Notes: generated from the letters alone by a model not told the origin. 64,000 bases of DNA from Salinigranum salinum (GCF_009176545.1 NZ_VTOJ01000002.1:992001-1056000); one strand, 5' to 3'; shown: positions 19,688 to 39,925, counted from the first letter of the stretch. A program made the numbers and translations.

Positions 19688-20776
19688 ATGGACCTGGACG
19701 CCGTCCTCGAAGAGAGCTGCGCGCGCGACTGGCAGACGGTCGACCCGGACACGGTCGACCGCGTTCGGTTCGCCGTGATCGGGTTGGGCTGGTTCACGCG
19801 AGGGCGGGCACTCCCCGCACTGACCGACAGCGACCTGTGTGAGCCGACAGTGCTCGTCAGTAGTTCGACCGAGAAAGCCCAGCGCGTCGCCGCCGAAACG
19901 GCCGGGGCGGACCACGGCATCACCTACGACGAGTTCCACGACGGCGTGGCCACCGACGCCTACGATGCGGTGTACGTTTGCACGCCCAACGCGCTACATC
20001 TGGCGTACGTCGAGACGGCCGCGACCTACGGAAAGGACGTGCTCTGTGAGAAACCGATGGAGCGCGACAGTGACCGGGCCCGGCGACTGCGCGACGCCGC
20101 CGTCGAGGCGGGGATCGACCTGATGGTCGCCTACCGGATGCACACCGAACCCGCGGTCCGTCGGGCGCGCGAACTCGTCGAGGCGGGCTACATCGGCGAC
20201 CCGATGTCGGTCACTGGCGACATGTCACAGCGGCTGTTGGATCGCGTGAACCCCGACCCCGACCAGTGGCGCCTCGACGAGGACCTCGCTGGTGGCGGCG
20301 CACTGTTCGACATCGGGATCTATCCACTGAACACCGCGCGCTTCCTGCTCGACGCTGACCCGGTGGCGGTTACCGGAAAGACAGCCAGCAGCCACGACGC
20401 GTTCGACGAGGTCGACGAGACCGTGTCGTTCTCGGTCGAGTTCCCCGACGAGGTGTACGCGAACTGCTACGCCAGTCACAACGCACGCCAGTCGTCGAGC
20501 ATCACCGTCACGGGTACGGAGGGACAGGTCCGGGTCGAACCGGCGTTCTTTCAGGACCAGGCCCGGCAACTGCACGTCTCTCGGGGCGACGGTCGGGCCA
20601 CGGTGACGCTGACACCGGTCGACCAGATGCGAGAGGAGTTCGACTACTTCGCCGACCGAGTCCGTGGGTCCGACTCGATCCATCCCGACGGGACACACGG
20701 ACTGGTCGACATGAGAGTGATGGAGGCCATCTACGAGGCCGCCGAGATCGACCGCTGGATCTCGGTCGAGTCCTGA
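19688..20776 (+). CDS. Gfo/Idh/MocA-family sugar 1-dehydrogenase (D-xylose dehydrogenase-like)
   Basis: A 362-residue NAD(P)-dependent oxidoreductase. The Rossmann motif VIGLGWFTRGRALPAL (about 30-45) and EKPM (the conserved EKP catalytic Lys motif, about 121-124) are visible, and ALFDIGIYPLNTARFLL corresponds to the conserved DIGxY segment. It closely resembles the haloarchaeal D-xylose 1-dehydrogenase of the Haloferax/Haloarcula oxidative pentose pathway, which makes a lactone from an aldose. In this cluster it would perform the first oxidation of the imported sugar; if the pathway is a sulfo-Entner-Doudoroff type it would be a sulfoquinovose dehydrogenase replacing the short-chain enzyme of bacteria (inference). 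Confidence 0.88.
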   Translation: MDLDAVLEESCARDWQTVDPDTVDRVRFAVIGLGWFTRGRALPALTDSDLCEPTVLVSSSTEKAQRVAAETAGADHGITYDEFHDGVATDAYDAVYVCTPNALHLAYVETAATYGKDVLCEKPMERDSDRARRLRDAAVEAGIDLMVAYRMHTEPAVRRARELVEAGYIGDPMSVTGDMSQRLLDRVNPDPDQWRLDEDLAGGGALFDIGIYPLNTARFLLDADPVAVTGKTASSHDAFDEVDETVSFSVEFPDEVYANCYASHNARQSSSITVTGTEGQVRVEPAFFQDQARQLHVSRGDGRATVTLTPVDQMREEFDYFADRVRGSDSIHPDGTHGLVDMRVMEAIYEAAEIDRWISVES

Positions 20777-20924
20777 GCGGGAGACGACCGGGTCGGAGAG
20801 ACAGTCGAGCTCGTGGAAACCGCAGCGACCCGGCTGTCGACGGATCCGGTTCGGTCGGACGAGCGGCCGTCGCGCACGGACTGACGCACGCTCTCCCCGA
20901 CGGTGCCTGGCGTACCGACAGCGC

Positions 20925-22406
20925 TCAGGCGGTGAATCCCTCGTGGAACCCGACGAGCTTCTGGCGTGAGAAGTGCTCGATGGCGTACCTGACACCTTCT
21001 TTCCCCACACCGGAGTCTTCGAAGCCGCCGTAGGGCATGTGGTCGGTACGGAACCCGCTGACCGTGTTGATGTGGACGCCCCCGGCGTCGATCTCGTCCG
21101 CCGCACGTTTCGCTCGGTCGATGTCCTGTGTGAAGACCCCAGCCGCCAGCCCGTAGTTCGTGTCGTTCGCCTCCTCGATGGCCTCGTCGAAGTCCGCGAC
21201 CGAGATGACCGGGACCAGCGGTCCGAACGTCTCGTCGCTCGCGGCCGGCATCTCGGGAGTGACGCCCGAGAGGACCGTCGGTTCGAAGACCCGCTCACCG
21301 AGGTCGCCGCCGTAGTTCCCCCCACACTCGACGGTCGCGCCGGCCTCGACGGTCGCCTCGAAACAGTCGACGACGTCCTCGAACTGGCTGTCGTCGACCA
21401 TCGAGGCCACGTCGGTTCCGTCCTCGAAGGGGTCCCCGACGGTGAGCGACTCGCAGGCGTCGACCATCGCGTCGACGAGTTCGTCCTCGACGGCCTCGTC
21501 GACGATGACGCGCTCGACGCTGTTGCACACCTGGCCCGCGTTCGAACACGCGCCACCCACGACCTGCGCGGCGGCCTGTTCGACGTCGGTGTCGTTCCAG
21601 ACGATCGTCGGGTCGTTGCCGCCGAGCTCCAGCGTGACCTCTTTCATGCCACTGTTGTTGGCGAGATACGTCCCGACGGGGGTCGAACCGGTGAACGAGA
21701 TCGCCTCCACCGCGTCGTGGTCGAGGACGACGTCGCCGACGGTCGAACCCGACCCGGTGACGACGTTGACCAGGCCGTCCGGAACGTCGGCGTCTATCGC
21801 ATCGGCCGCGTCGTCGAGACACTCGAACAGGGCGATGGCGGTCAGCGGCGTGTTCGTCGCCGGCTTCCCGACGACGGCGTTGCCGGCCGCGAGCGCTGGC
21901 CCGACCTTGTGGACCATCAGGTTCAGCGGGAAGTTGAACGGTGTGATGGCCGCGACGACGCCCAGCGGTTCGTGTTGGGTGAAACAGTGGTCCCGGGCGA
22001 ACCCCTTCTGGGCGTCCATCGGGACGTACTCGCCGAACAGCCGTTTGGCCTGCTCCGCCGAGAGGTCGAGCGTCTGTACCGCACGGTCGACCTCGTCGCG
22101 GGCCTCGCTGATCGGTTTCCCCTGCTCGCTGGTGAGGACGCGGGCGATGTCGTCGGCACGCGCCTCGACGAGGTGGGCCGTCGCCGAGAGGAGTTCGGAG
22201 CGCTGGTACGCCGTCAGGTCCGAGGCCTCGAAGGCCGCCTCGGCCGCGTCGACCGCTTCCGTGACCTGTGCCTCGCTCGCCAGCGGGACCGAGCCGACGA
22301 GTTCGCCGTCGTACGGGTGAATAACGTGGGTTCGATCGTCGGCGTCGACCCACACGCCGTCGATGAACATGTCTTTGTCGAGACGGCTCGCTGCTTCGAG
22401 ACTCAT
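20925..22406 (-). CDS. NAD(P)-dependent aldehyde dehydrogenase
   Basis: A 493-residue ALDH-superfamily enzyme. Visible signature residues: ITPFNFPLN with Asn158, KPA (Lys181), GSTPVG, ELGG with Glu260, and NAGQVCN with the catalytic Cys294. It oxidises an aldehyde to an acid. Haloarchaeal relatives act on alpha-ketoglutarate semialdehyde or lactaldehyde; in this cluster the likely substrates are the aldehyde from the aldolase (glyceraldehyde or, if sulfosugars are degraded, 3-sulfolactaldehyde). The start MSLEAASRLDKD at 22406 is chosen because the longer frame to 22661 runs through the divergent promoter region; an ATG at 22424 is also possible. Divergent from the aldolase gene. Confidence 0.9.
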   Translation of the reverse strand: MSLEAASRLDKDMFIDGVWVDADDRTHVIHPYDGELVGSVPLASEAQVTEAVDAAEAAFEASDLTAYQRSELLSATAHLVEARADDIARVLTSEQGKPISEARDEVDRAVQTLDLSAEQAKRLFGEYVPMDAQKGFARDHCFTQHEPLGVVAAITPFNFPLNLMVHKVGPALAAGNAVVGKPATNTPLTAIALFECLDDAADAIDADVPDGLVNVVTGSGSTVGDVVLDHDAVEAISFTGSTPVGTYLANNSGMKEVTLELGGNDPTIVWNDTDVEQAAAQVVGGACSNAGQVCNSVERVIVDEAVEDELVDAMVDACESLTVGDPFEDGTDVASMVDDSQFEDVVDCFEATVEAGATVECGGNYGGDLGERVFEPTVLSGVTPEMPAASDETFGPLVPVISVADFDEAIEEANDTNYGLAAGVFTQDIDRAKRAADEIDAGGVHINTVSGFRTDHMPYGGFEDSGVGKEGVRYAIEHFSRQKLVGFHEGFTA

Positions 22407-22610
22407 ACACGACGCGTCAGCCATCTCGCCAATAAGTGTTTTGCAGCGTCCCTGCGACCCGTTCAGGATAGCAGGCGACCCACGCTCACTTGGTGGGAAC
22501 GCGGGGGCTTCAACGACCTTCGGAGTCGGCGCGTGCACGCCCCGAATTCGGCGGAGGGACGAGGCGGGCGCATCGGTCGGAGCGACCGATTCGGACGGAG
22601 GGCATCCAAA

Positions 22611-22620
22611 ATTATAACTT
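22611..22620 (+). promoter_or_regulatory. TATA-like box of the aldolase gene
   Basis: attataactt lies 23-32 bases before the ATG at 22643, the spacing expected for a leaderless transcript. It belongs to the divergent promoter region shared with the aldehyde dehydrogenase gene. Confidence 0.55.
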
Positions 22621-39090: not shown

Positions 39091-39097
39091 CGTCGCC

Positions 39098-39114
39098 GTT
39101 TGCCTCTCGCAAAC
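39098..39114 (+). promoter_or_regulatory. Operator-like palindrome upstream of the IclR gene
   Basis: gtttgcctctcgcaaac is a perfect inverted repeat, GTTTGC/GCAAAC with a 5-base spacer, 32 bases before the iclR start codon. Close relatives occur at 40051-40067 and 40226-40242 and a weak one at 39928. Its place suggests autoregulation by the IclR protein. Confidence 0.6.
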
Positions 39115-39145
39115 AACTAAGTGCCGTCGATATCATCACTAGCGT

Positions 39146-39925
39146 ATGCCACACCAACCGGCGGACGGCGGCTCCGGACGGCGGGTCAATGCCGTCCAGA
39201 CCTCGTGTGACATCGTCGCGAAACTGCGTGAACTGGACGGTGCGGGCGTCTCGGAACTGGCGGCGGAACTCGACCGCTCGAAGGCGACGATACACAGCCA
39301 CCTCGCGACCCTCGTCGACAACGAGTTCGTCGTCAAGCGCGGCGACACCTACGCGCTCAGTCTCCGGTTCGTCGACATCGGCGAGTACGCCAAGGGCCGG
39401 GTCGACATCTACGAGGTCGCCAAAGACGAGGTCGAACGGCTCGCCGAGAAGACCGGCGAGGTCGCCCAGTTCATGGTGGAAGAACACGGTCGGGGAGTCT
39501 ACCTCCACAAAGCTCGCGGGGAGAACGCCATCCAGACGGAGTCGTACACGGGGAATCGGAAGAACCTCCACTGCACCGGCCTCGGGAAGGCCATCCTCTC
39601 ACAGCTCTCCGAGGAGCACGTCGACGACATCGTCGACACGCACGGACTGCCTGCACGGACCGAGAACACGATCACTACCCGAGACGCCCTGTTCGAGGAC
39701 CTCGAGGCGATTCGCGAACGTGGAGTGGCGTTCGACGACGAGGAGATCCTTCAGGGGCTTCGCTGTGTCGCCGCCCCGATCAAACATCCGACCGACAAGA
39801 TACAGGGAGCCATCAGTGTCTCGGGGCCGACGAGTCGGCTCAAGGGCGACCGCTTCTACGAAGAACTCCCCGAGATCGTCAAGGGAGCGGCCAACGTAAT
39901 CGAGGTCAACGCGACGCAAGTGTAG
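39146..39925 (+). CDS. IclR-family transcriptional regulator
   Basis: A 259-residue regulator. The N-terminal winged helix (VSELAAELDRSKATIHSHLA, about 33-52) is followed by the IclR ligand domain (VEEHGRGVYLHKARGENAIQ; LHCTGLGKAILSQL; ILQGLRCVAAPIKHPTDKIQ). Haloarchaeal members such as XacR control oxidative sugar pathways in response to a pathway intermediate. It closes the catabolic cluster and has a perfect palindrome before it, so it is the prime candidate for the cluster's regulator. The ATG at 39146 gives a normal-length protein. Confidence 0.9.
   Translation: MPHQPADGGSGRRVNAVQTSCDIVAKLRELDGAGVSELAAELDRSKATIHSHLATLVDNEFVVKRGDTYALSLRFVDIGEYAKGRVDIYEVAKDEVERLAEKTGEVAQFMVEEHGRGVYLHKARGENAIQTESYTGNRKNLHCTGLGKAILSQLSEEHVDDIVDTHGLPARTENTITTRDALFEDLEAIRERGVAFDDEEILQGLRCVAAPIKHPTDKIQGAISVSGPTSRLKGDRFYEELPEIVKGAANVIEVNATQV

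Follow-up and report, generated by a model that had tools for sequence, protein, structure and literature searches.

Which substrate is a haloarchaeon equipped to degrade when genes for an Entner-Doudoroff-type sugar pathway stand together with genes for a sulfolactate sulfo-lyase? The question is raised by a gene cluster of about 20 kb in Salinigranum salinum, at positions 19688 to 39925 of an analysed stretch of 64,000 nucleotides (GCF_009176545.1 NZ_VTOJ01000002.1:992001-1056000), referred to as the window. A first-pass annotation of the window had read the cluster as a pathway for a sulfosugar, modelled on the bacterial degradation of sulfoquinovose, and every gene family that it named was recovered by Pfam and NCBIfam profiles among the 16 cluster proteins (Table 1). 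As judged from sequence, the cluster is likely (probability roughly 0.74) to encode an archaeal Entner-Doudoroff-type sulfosugar pathway with desulfonation. The part of the earlier claim that leads from a sulfosugar through sulfolactate to sulfite is upheld by the sequence evidence, whereas its naming of sulfoquinovose specifically is not, on account of the GH31 residues and the lactonase discussed below. Such metabolism has so far been characterised only in bacteria. According to a review, no archaeal sulfosugar catabolic pathway has been characterised (PMC12890257), and none was found in the literature searched, with preprints and most subscription journals lying outside the search.

Gene content, conservation, the phylogeny of the large lyase subunit (SuyB) and the behaviour of the lower genes as a module are supported by the sequences, and we infer the individual reactions, their stereochemistry, the cargo of the exporter and the identity of the sugar. 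The substrate would be a 6-deoxy-6-sulfo-hexose, i.e. sulfoquinovose or an epimer such as sulfofucose; the chance that it is sulfoquinovose in particular is about even. The ATP-binding cassette (ABC) importer would bring in the sugar or a small glycoside, and the GH31 enzyme, plus GH3 where present, would free the sugar. C1 would then be oxidised by the Gfo6-type dehydrogenase, with the lactone opening spontaneously or through an unlinked enzyme, and the resulting sulfo-sugar acid would be dehydrated by the MR_MLE enzyme. The keto-deoxy acid would be split by the DHDPS-type aldolase into pyruvate and (S)-sulfolactaldehyde, and the aldehyde dehydrogenase would convert the latter to (S)-sulfolactate. 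Sulfolactaldehyde is 3-sulfo-lactaldehyde. A D-2-hydroxyacid dehydrogenase (D2HDH) and an LDH2-family dehydrogenase, in the roles of SlcC and ComC, would invert (S)-sulfolactate via sulfopyruvate to (R)-sulfolactate, which SuyAB would cleave to a second pyruvate and sulfite. The YeiH-type transporter may export sulfite or surplus sulfolactate.

At the level of sequence, the assignment of the desulfonation module is close to certain. A tree of the large subunit with UxaA and GarD had been named beforehand as a check, and in it the subunit groups with SuyB; the firm grouping with altronate/galactarate dehydratases that would have told against the sulfosugar reading was not obtained. In a 53-row tree with the HxxGRxQ and SDTTSG columns taken out, all 27 rows carrying HxxGRxQ (GR rows) form one side of a branch with support of 99/93, and UxaA, GarD and the haloarchaeal UxaA-type paralogues fall apart from them; these rows were chosen by hand and exclude, among others, L049 and L094. 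The latter are the two long non-GR rows inside the SuyB branch of a quick tree of 132 rows, where all 44 GR rows lie in one 46-row branch (95 by the Shimodaira-Hasegawa-like approximate likelihood ratio test, SH-aLRT); second haloarchaeal paralogues were mostly left out of this tree, with three kept. E. coli UxaA and GarD stand on long branches. The haloarchaeal SuyB clade also has a long branch (1.07), beside relatives from Chloroflexi, Nitrospinota and Clostridiales, and is therefore a deep sister of classical SuyB and not a recent copy of it. Classical-type SuyB sequences were also seen in Sulfolobales archaeon HS-7 and a Thermoplasmata metagenome-assembled genome (L125, L126).

The arginine of the motif was found in 44 of 155 rows: 17 distinct haloarchaeal sequences, 8 from Chloroflexi, Nitrospinota and Clostridiales, and 19 classical ones. 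Where the motif could be recognised, the same site holds Cys in E. coli UxaA and in the majority of the remaining bacterial rows, and Cys, Ala, Thr or Val in the haloarchaeal paralogues; some rows, including GarD, gave no match to the motif pattern. Absence of the Cys by itself does not set SuyB apart, because Ala or Thr stands at the site in many haloarchaeal paralogues. Four Cys are described as conserved in the superfamily except in sulfolactate sulfo-lyase (PMC6336799), in a numbering not mapped onto the HxxGRxQ site. The large and small subunits are encoded by separate adjacent genes; other two-subunit members of the superfamily exist, so this arrangement alone is not decisive. The rows were obtained from 167 extracted large-subunit stretches, of which 12 (identical copies or loci L001-L006) were dropped. 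The collection scan, the source of many rows, started from peptide patterns resembling SuyB and gave its best 80 of 572, so that sampling favours SuyB-like sequences. Bacterial SuyB references came from plasmid records (Cupriavidus pinatubonensis, Paracoccus versutus, Rhodobacteraceae SC52 and Sinorhizobium mexicanum) and those for UxaA and GarD from E. coli K-12.

Chance does not account for the gene set, as a similar order recurs across several haloarchaeal genera. Clusters with a similar content were found in Haloarcula pelagica plasmid 1, Halomarina sp. BND7, Halomarina sp. PSR21, Haloarcula amylovorans, Halobellus salinus, archaeon QS_4_66_20, Halorarius litoreus and, as far as the end of the record, Halomicrococcus gelatinilyticus. 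Several of these records are plasmids. Gene order is largely kept, with the permeases relocated in some relatives and GH3 optional (present in 9 of 13 sampled clusters). Across 292 genomes of the class, MR_MLE orthologues (at least 83% identity) occur in 13 and GH31 orthologues (at least 60%) in the identical 13, a co-occurrence with a hypergeometric probability of 7e-23 that is not corrected for relatedness. The numbered genomes are probably in part the named records (e.g. G247 and Natribaculum luteum), and the counts are therefore not independent.

The lower genes follow a distribution of their own. SuyB orthologues at 82-100% identity, including the window's copy, are found in 10 of the 292 genomes (the next best match is at 44%), and LDH2 orthologues (at least 66%) in 9, all inside those 10; one of the nine, at the end of a contig, is a fragment. 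Seven of the 13 sugar clusters hold D2HDH, SuyA, SuyB and LDH2, and five hold none of the four. G247 has a sugar cluster without D2HDH and LDH2, and its SuyAB lie about 8 kb off on the same plasmid, in a TauE locus of their own. In G029, all four lower genes stand with genes for TauE and TRAP, sugar genes are absent from the 20-kb stretch, and a genome-wide search returned no MR_MLE or GH31 orthologue. The fragmented assembly G206 contains SuyAB and YeiH, and its LDH2 lies on a different contig. Genome-wide in 15 genomes, the D2HDH orthologue (at least 62%, next best 45%) occurs in G029 and all seven full-cluster genomes; the other seven lack it, among them all six whose sugar cluster is without LDH2. 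Although D2HDH does not adjoin LDH2-SuyB-SuyA in the window, it is present or absent together with LDH2 in 14 of the 15 genomes, G206 being the exception; a single insertion therefore does not explain their co-occurrence. Sugar genes and lower genes are each found without the other. Because the genes of each set are present or absent jointly across genomes, the desulfonation set behaves as a module plugged into the sugar pathway. Presence was called with self-chosen identity and length thresholds, genome-wide for SuyB, LDH2, MR_MLE, GH31, D2HDH and YeiH and within the fetched stretches for the remaining genes.

For the LDH2 protein, the best NCBIfam model is L-sulfolactate dehydrogenase (325 bits, cut-off 500; next 196) and the best PDB match is the L-sulfolactate dehydrogenase 2x06 (258 bits, next 190). 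D2HDH is 39% identical to its S. mexicanum homologue and 40% to a paralogue in its own genome. The names SlcC for D2HDH and ComC for LDH2 are proposed, on context more than on trees. The YeiH-type protein scores 177.9 bits with PF03601 and 101.7 bits with TIGR00698 (under the cut-off of 232.6). Its gene adjoins suyAB in the window, and sulfate exporter family genes are annotated beside SuyAB in Paracoccus and Rhodobacteraceae. YeiH passes threshold in 8 of the 13 cluster stretches, and SuyAB are missing from four of the eight. A genome-wide search added one copy at the cluster edge in G277 and unlinked copies in G095 and G073, and found none in G247 or G137. Its retention without SuyAB means that YeiH may export sulfolactate, either alongside sulfite or in its place.

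SuyAB also occur in haloarchaea outside sugar clusters. On H. pelagica plasmid 2 (L036 15540-23927), a SuyB 90% identical to that of the window is accompanied by SuyA, YeiH, SDR, a TRAP importer and an HpsN homologue annotated as "histidinol dehydrogenase". The best PDB match of this homologue is HpsN (324 bits; the best HisD scores 279), and it is 39% identical to Cupriavidus HpsN. The sulfonate-contacting His motif of HpsN is GRYAH (GRY[AS]H), against GSAPL in HisD, and Lys353 is also described (PMC11382572). The haloarchaeal protein keeps GHFTH (His131) and FGDK, the equivalents of His126 and Asp352-Lys353, with the Arg and Tyr of the motif replaced by His and Phe. The word "archaea" is absent from the main text of the HpsN paper. 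(R)-Sulfolactate is the direct product of HpsN (PMC11382572), and a SlcC/ComC pair would thus be needed only where the (S) form arises. The 37-kb L036 locus has no D2HDH or LDH2 orthologue, as expected if HpsN acts in this way; this is a statement about the locus, since H. pelagica plasmid 1 has both. L036 is a candidate haloarchaeal pathway for 2,3-dihydroxypropane-1-sulfonate (DHPS). In Natribaculum luteum (L039) and Haloarcula sp. GH36 (L198), SuyAB are accompanied by a sulfite exporter of the TauE type and by TAXI-TRAP genes; a lyase of the ArgH family, FAD proteins and Fe-S proteins also belong to this third haloarchaeal SuyAB context (L198, L039 and L191, the last being G029). Annotation of suyAB in Halorubrum is already in print, inside a gene-content analysis (PMC10468875). 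The HpsN and TauE loci with near-identical SuyB, the gene arrangement of S. mexicanum and the joint presence or absence of the lower genes add to the sulfosugar reading of the first-pass annotation.

Several findings weigh against a sulfosugar pathway. Gfo6 scores 515.7 bits with the NCBIfam model of D-xylose 1-dehydrogenase Gfo6, above its cut-off of 350. The best PDB match of the sugar-binding protein is a trehalose/maltose-binding protein (213 bits, against 147 for SmoF), a comparison that does not separate sulfoquinovosyl glycerol from neutral disaccharides. GH31 is closer to YicI than to YihQ (437 against 212 bits in the PDB) and exceeds the YicI model cut-off (607.2 bits, cut-off 606). 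The residues that we take to bind the sulfonate in YihQ are Q262, Q288, R301, W304 and Y508. None of them is kept in 12 cluster GH31 sequences (two copies with frame errors were left out), with R301, W304 and Y508 falling in gaps, and a YihQ-type sulfoquinovosidase was rejected on this ground. Both this and the missing lactonase had been pointed out beforehand: Pfam finds no lactonase among the 16 cluster proteins, and the genome has three PF08450 matches elsewhere. No 9-mer, with one mismatch allowed, is shared by four or more of five intergenic regions of the window as a common operator. The five of 13 clusters without the whole lower gene set imply that the sugar pathway can exist without desulfonation. 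Among the lower genes, the large subunit is 43% identical to a haloarchaeal UxaA-type paralogue and 33-36% to classical SuyB (BLAST). The small subunit shares 30-37% identity with three bacterial SuyA and 37-41% with two small subunits of the UxaA type, and it lacks the C-terminal KRW of the three SuyA; being no closer to SuyA than to the UxaA type, it is not decisive by itself. In their trees, LDH2 (36 rows) and D2HDH (22 rows) fall in firm haloarchaeal clades, which do not join firmly to bacterial ComC and SlcC.

The alternative that survives best, though still unlikely, is that the upper genes serve the ordinary degradation of a pentose or hexose and that an independent module for sulfolactate desulfonation was inserted in some strains. 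For example, alpha-xylosides could be converted to xylose and degraded via Gfo6, an MR_MLE xylonate dehydratase, a Weimberg-type dehydratase and 2,5-dioxovalerate dehydrogenase. The Gfo6 and YicI-like GH31 matches and the five clusters without lower genes fit this alternative, as do two of four outgroup GH31 loci with a Gfo6 homologue within a few kb. The aldehyde dehydrogenase does not: its best NCBIfam model is lactaldehyde dehydrogenase (527 bits, cut-off 650), against 366 bits (cut-off 750) for haloarchaeal 2,5-dioxovalerate dehydrogenase, with neither cut-off passed. Further, the genome has other Gfo6 copies, from which the cluster's copy is distinct (54% and 48% identity); D2HDH and LDH2-SuyB-SuyA are present or absent together from two separate places; and four of the five module-free clusters retain YeiH. 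On the aldehyde dehydrogenase profile and the module behaviour, a Weimberg-type pentose pathway was rejected as the sole function.

A second alternative, an improbable one, takes the two-subunit enzyme as an altronate/galactarate-type dehydratase of a uronate or hexarate pathway, with YeiH unrelated to it. The large subunit does belong to the UxaA/GarD superfamily, its only NCBIfam match is galactarate dehydratase, far below cut-off (124 bits, cut-off 731), and it is 39% identical to a Metabacillus UxaA-type paralogue in addition to the 43% already given. These similarities are outweighed by the two trees, the Arg of HxxGRxQ and the HpsN or TauE neighbours in other haloarchaea; on the trees and the Arg, an altronate/galactarate dehydratase was rejected for the large subunit. 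Least probable of all is a different sulfonate that yields sulfolactate, with the sugar enzymes serving a co-imported neutral sugar of the same glycoconjugate: SuyAB do occur with TRAP importers and without sugar genes, and GH31 is without known sulfoquinovosidase residues, but the 16 cluster proteins include no second importer, HpsN or aminotransferase family, and the Entner-Doudoroff-type set alone would supply the C3 aldehyde needed.

For the sulfosugar pathway, some features of the sugar enzymes may bear on the binding of a sulfonate. GH31 has cluster-specific His350 (17 of 17 rows) and His352 (16 of 17), where 11 paralogues have Phe or Tyr and Tyr, respectively; that these residues help to bind a sulfonate is a guess. 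In MR_MLE, Arg86, Arg109 and Arg115 are specific to the cluster (each in 18 of 18 rows), and so are in Gfo6, among others, Arg40, Arg126 and His264 (each in 15 of 15) and Arg267 (14 of 15). When MR_MLE, Gfo6 and GH31 are pooled, 20 of 108 basic and 11 of 139 acidic conserved positions are cluster-specific (Fisher p 0.019), an enrichment that is suggestive only, with few paralogues and relatedness uncorrected. The MR_MLE protein has the same Pfam pair (PF13378/PF02746) as the sulfogalactonate dehydratase SfcF; its AlphaFold2 model (7 sequences, mean pLDDT 77.4) has no bearing on the substrate pocket. No NCBIfam model reached its cut-off with the aldolase.

A wider proposal stands at slightly better than even odds: haloarchaea would run a complete, often plasmid-borne sulfosugar mineralisation, the first outside bacteria, with xyloside- and xylose-type enzymes (YicI-like GH31, Gfo6 dehydrogenase, MR_MLE dehydratase and DHDPS aldolase) re-tooled for a 6-sulfo-hexose. 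Among these would be a glycosidase of a new class, acting on sulfosugars and holding the sulfonate in a different pocket (His350, His352), and there would be two outcomes, excretion of sulfolactate or release of sulfite by a SlcC/ComC/SuyAB cassette. If true, this would show how a pathway is put together anew from non-homologous parts, with a conserved desulfonation module at its centre. The prediction can be tested: the cluster or parts of it are present in records of Haloarcula pelagica, Natribaculum luteum, Halobellus salinus and Halorarius litoreus, and the expected product is sulfite for strains that have the desulfonation set and sulfolactate for those that lack it. Algal and cyanobacterial sulfolipid enters hypersaline waters. 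One haloarchaeal S-layer protein is reported to bear a glycan of sulfoquinovose and hexose (PMC4245038). Given both sources, a consumer among the archaea would supply a step that is missing from the cycling of organosulfur compounds in brines.

Table 1. Genes of the Salinigranum salinum cluster, with positions in the window and the profiles or other evidence for each.
Feature	Position	Strand	Evidence
Gfo6-type sugar 1-dehydrogenase, proposed sulfosugar dehydrogenase	19688..20776	+	Pfam GFO_IDH_MocA; NCBIfam Gfo6
Aldehyde dehydrogenase, proposed sulfolactaldehyde dehydrogenase	20925..22406	-	Aldedh; start re-estimated
DHDPS-family aldolase, proposed 2-keto-3-deoxy-6-sulfo-sugar-acid aldolase	22643..23542	+	PF00701; start re-estimated
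Sugar ABC transporter substrate-binding protein	23654..25036	-	PF01547
LDH2-family dehydrogenase, proposed ComC, (R)-sulfolactate dehydrogenase	25115..26119	-	PF02615
SuyB-type large subunit, proposed (R)-sulfolactate sulfo-lyase	26121..27287	-	GD_AH families, tree, HxxGRxQ
SuyA-type SAF-domain small subunit	27292..27615	-	PF08666
YeiH/SuyZ-type transporter, proposed sulfite or sulfolactate exporter	27680..28678	-	PF03601; start re-estimated
44-aa open reading frame (ORF), one hydrophobic stretch, directly upstream of YeiH	28681..28815	-	
ABC permease	28925..29896	+	PF00528
ABC permease	29898..30764	+	PF00528
D-2-hydroxyacid dehydrogenase, proposed SlcC, (S)-sulfolactate dehydrogenase	30937..31905	-	PF02826/PF00389
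MR_MLE (enolase superfamily) sugar-acid dehydratase, proposed 6-sulfo-sugar-acid dehydratase	31929..33212	-	PF13378/PF02746
GH3 glycosidase, optional in cluster	33241..35460	-	PF00933/PF01915
GH31 alpha-glycosidase, YicI-like	35555..37897	+	PF01055; start re-estimated
UgpC/MalK-type ABC ATPase	37963..39090	+	PF00005
IclR-type regulator	39146..39925	+	PF01614

The start of the aldehyde dehydrogenase was re-estimated by orthologue length. The ORFs searched were 20925-22661 for this enzyme, 26121-27335 for the large subunit and 35072-37897 for GH31. Small ORFs are annotated at the position matching the 44-aa ORF in H. pelagica plasmid 1 (L037) and Halomarina sp. BND7 (L038). Directly upstream of the IclR gene (window 39088-39148) is a palindrome, GTTTGC-N5-GCAAAC, which is a possible operator. 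Elsewhere in the window, homologues of EutA, EutC and EutB (ethanolamine ammonia-lyase), here in a haloarchaeon, are encoded at 10301-14122 (-), and one protein with five PKD-domain stretches at 61765-63969 (-). Chemotaxis genes (methyl-accepting chemotaxis protein signalling domain, CheA-like and CheC-like) lie downstream of the cluster at 45162-53488, and a methyl-accepting chemotaxis protein gene lies within the H. pelagica sugar cluster (L037 22767-25130).

The nearest published parallel is the sulfofucose pathway of Paracoccus wurundjeri, an Entner-Doudoroff-type route coupled to SlcC/ComC/SuyAB (sfcHDFE with slcC, comC and suyAB; PMC12421959). As that pathway is described, the two share ABC import, C1 oxidation, MR_MLE dehydration and aldol cleavage to pyruvate and sulfolactaldehyde followed by SlcC/ComC/SuyAB, as well as the Pfam pair of the dehydratase (PF13378-PF02746 in SfcF) and homologues of SuyA, SuyB, SlcC and ComC. 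The window cluster differs in being archaeal, in its Gfo/Idh/MocA dehydrogenase and in having glycosidases in the cluster. Its aldolase is of the DHDPS family (PF00701) whereas that of P. wurundjeri is PF03328, the PF08450 lactonase is not in the window cluster, and YeiH is inside the cluster whereas P. wurundjeri strain Merri has a TauE homologue in another cluster. Sinorhizobium mexicanum, which is listed with an SfcF homologue (PMC12421959), has homologues of ABC, SDR, MR_MLE, SuyA, SuyB, YeiH, D2HDH and LDH2 within about 14 kb, in a suyA-suyB-YeiH-slcC-comC arrangement (the record is unannotated); its MR_MLE protein, perhaps the listed SfcF homologue, is 28% identical to that of the window.

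The sulfo-Entner-Doudoroff pathway of Pseudomonas putida SQ1 has the reaction order proposed here, in a comparison that covers the reactions. It is described as excreting sulfolactate (PMC12965863, PMC12890257), and the module-free haloarchaeal clusters (5 of 13) would be nearest to it in outcome. Bacterial DHPS and sulfolactate clusters share SuyA and SuyB with the window, and in part YeiH-type (Paracoccus, Rhodobacteraceae) and LDH2 (Rhodobacteraceae) genes: Cupriavidus pinatubonensis has hpsN and hpsO alongside suyAB, Paracoccus versutus a YeiH-type gene next to suyAB with a sulfite oxidase near, and the suyAB locus of Rhodobacteraceae SC52 TRAP, HisD-family, SDR, LDH2 and YeiH-type genes. 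Unlike the window, the bacterial DHPS clusters use TRAP, MFS or other importers and HpsN to reach (R)-sulfolactate, and no sugar pathway was seen in them. Haloarchaeal xylose and xyloside catabolism has the Gfo6 and YicI-type GH31 families in common with the window, whose cluster differs in the type of aldehyde dehydrogenase, as judged by profile, and in the addition of SuyAB, the ComC-like and SlcC-like dehydrogenases and YeiH.

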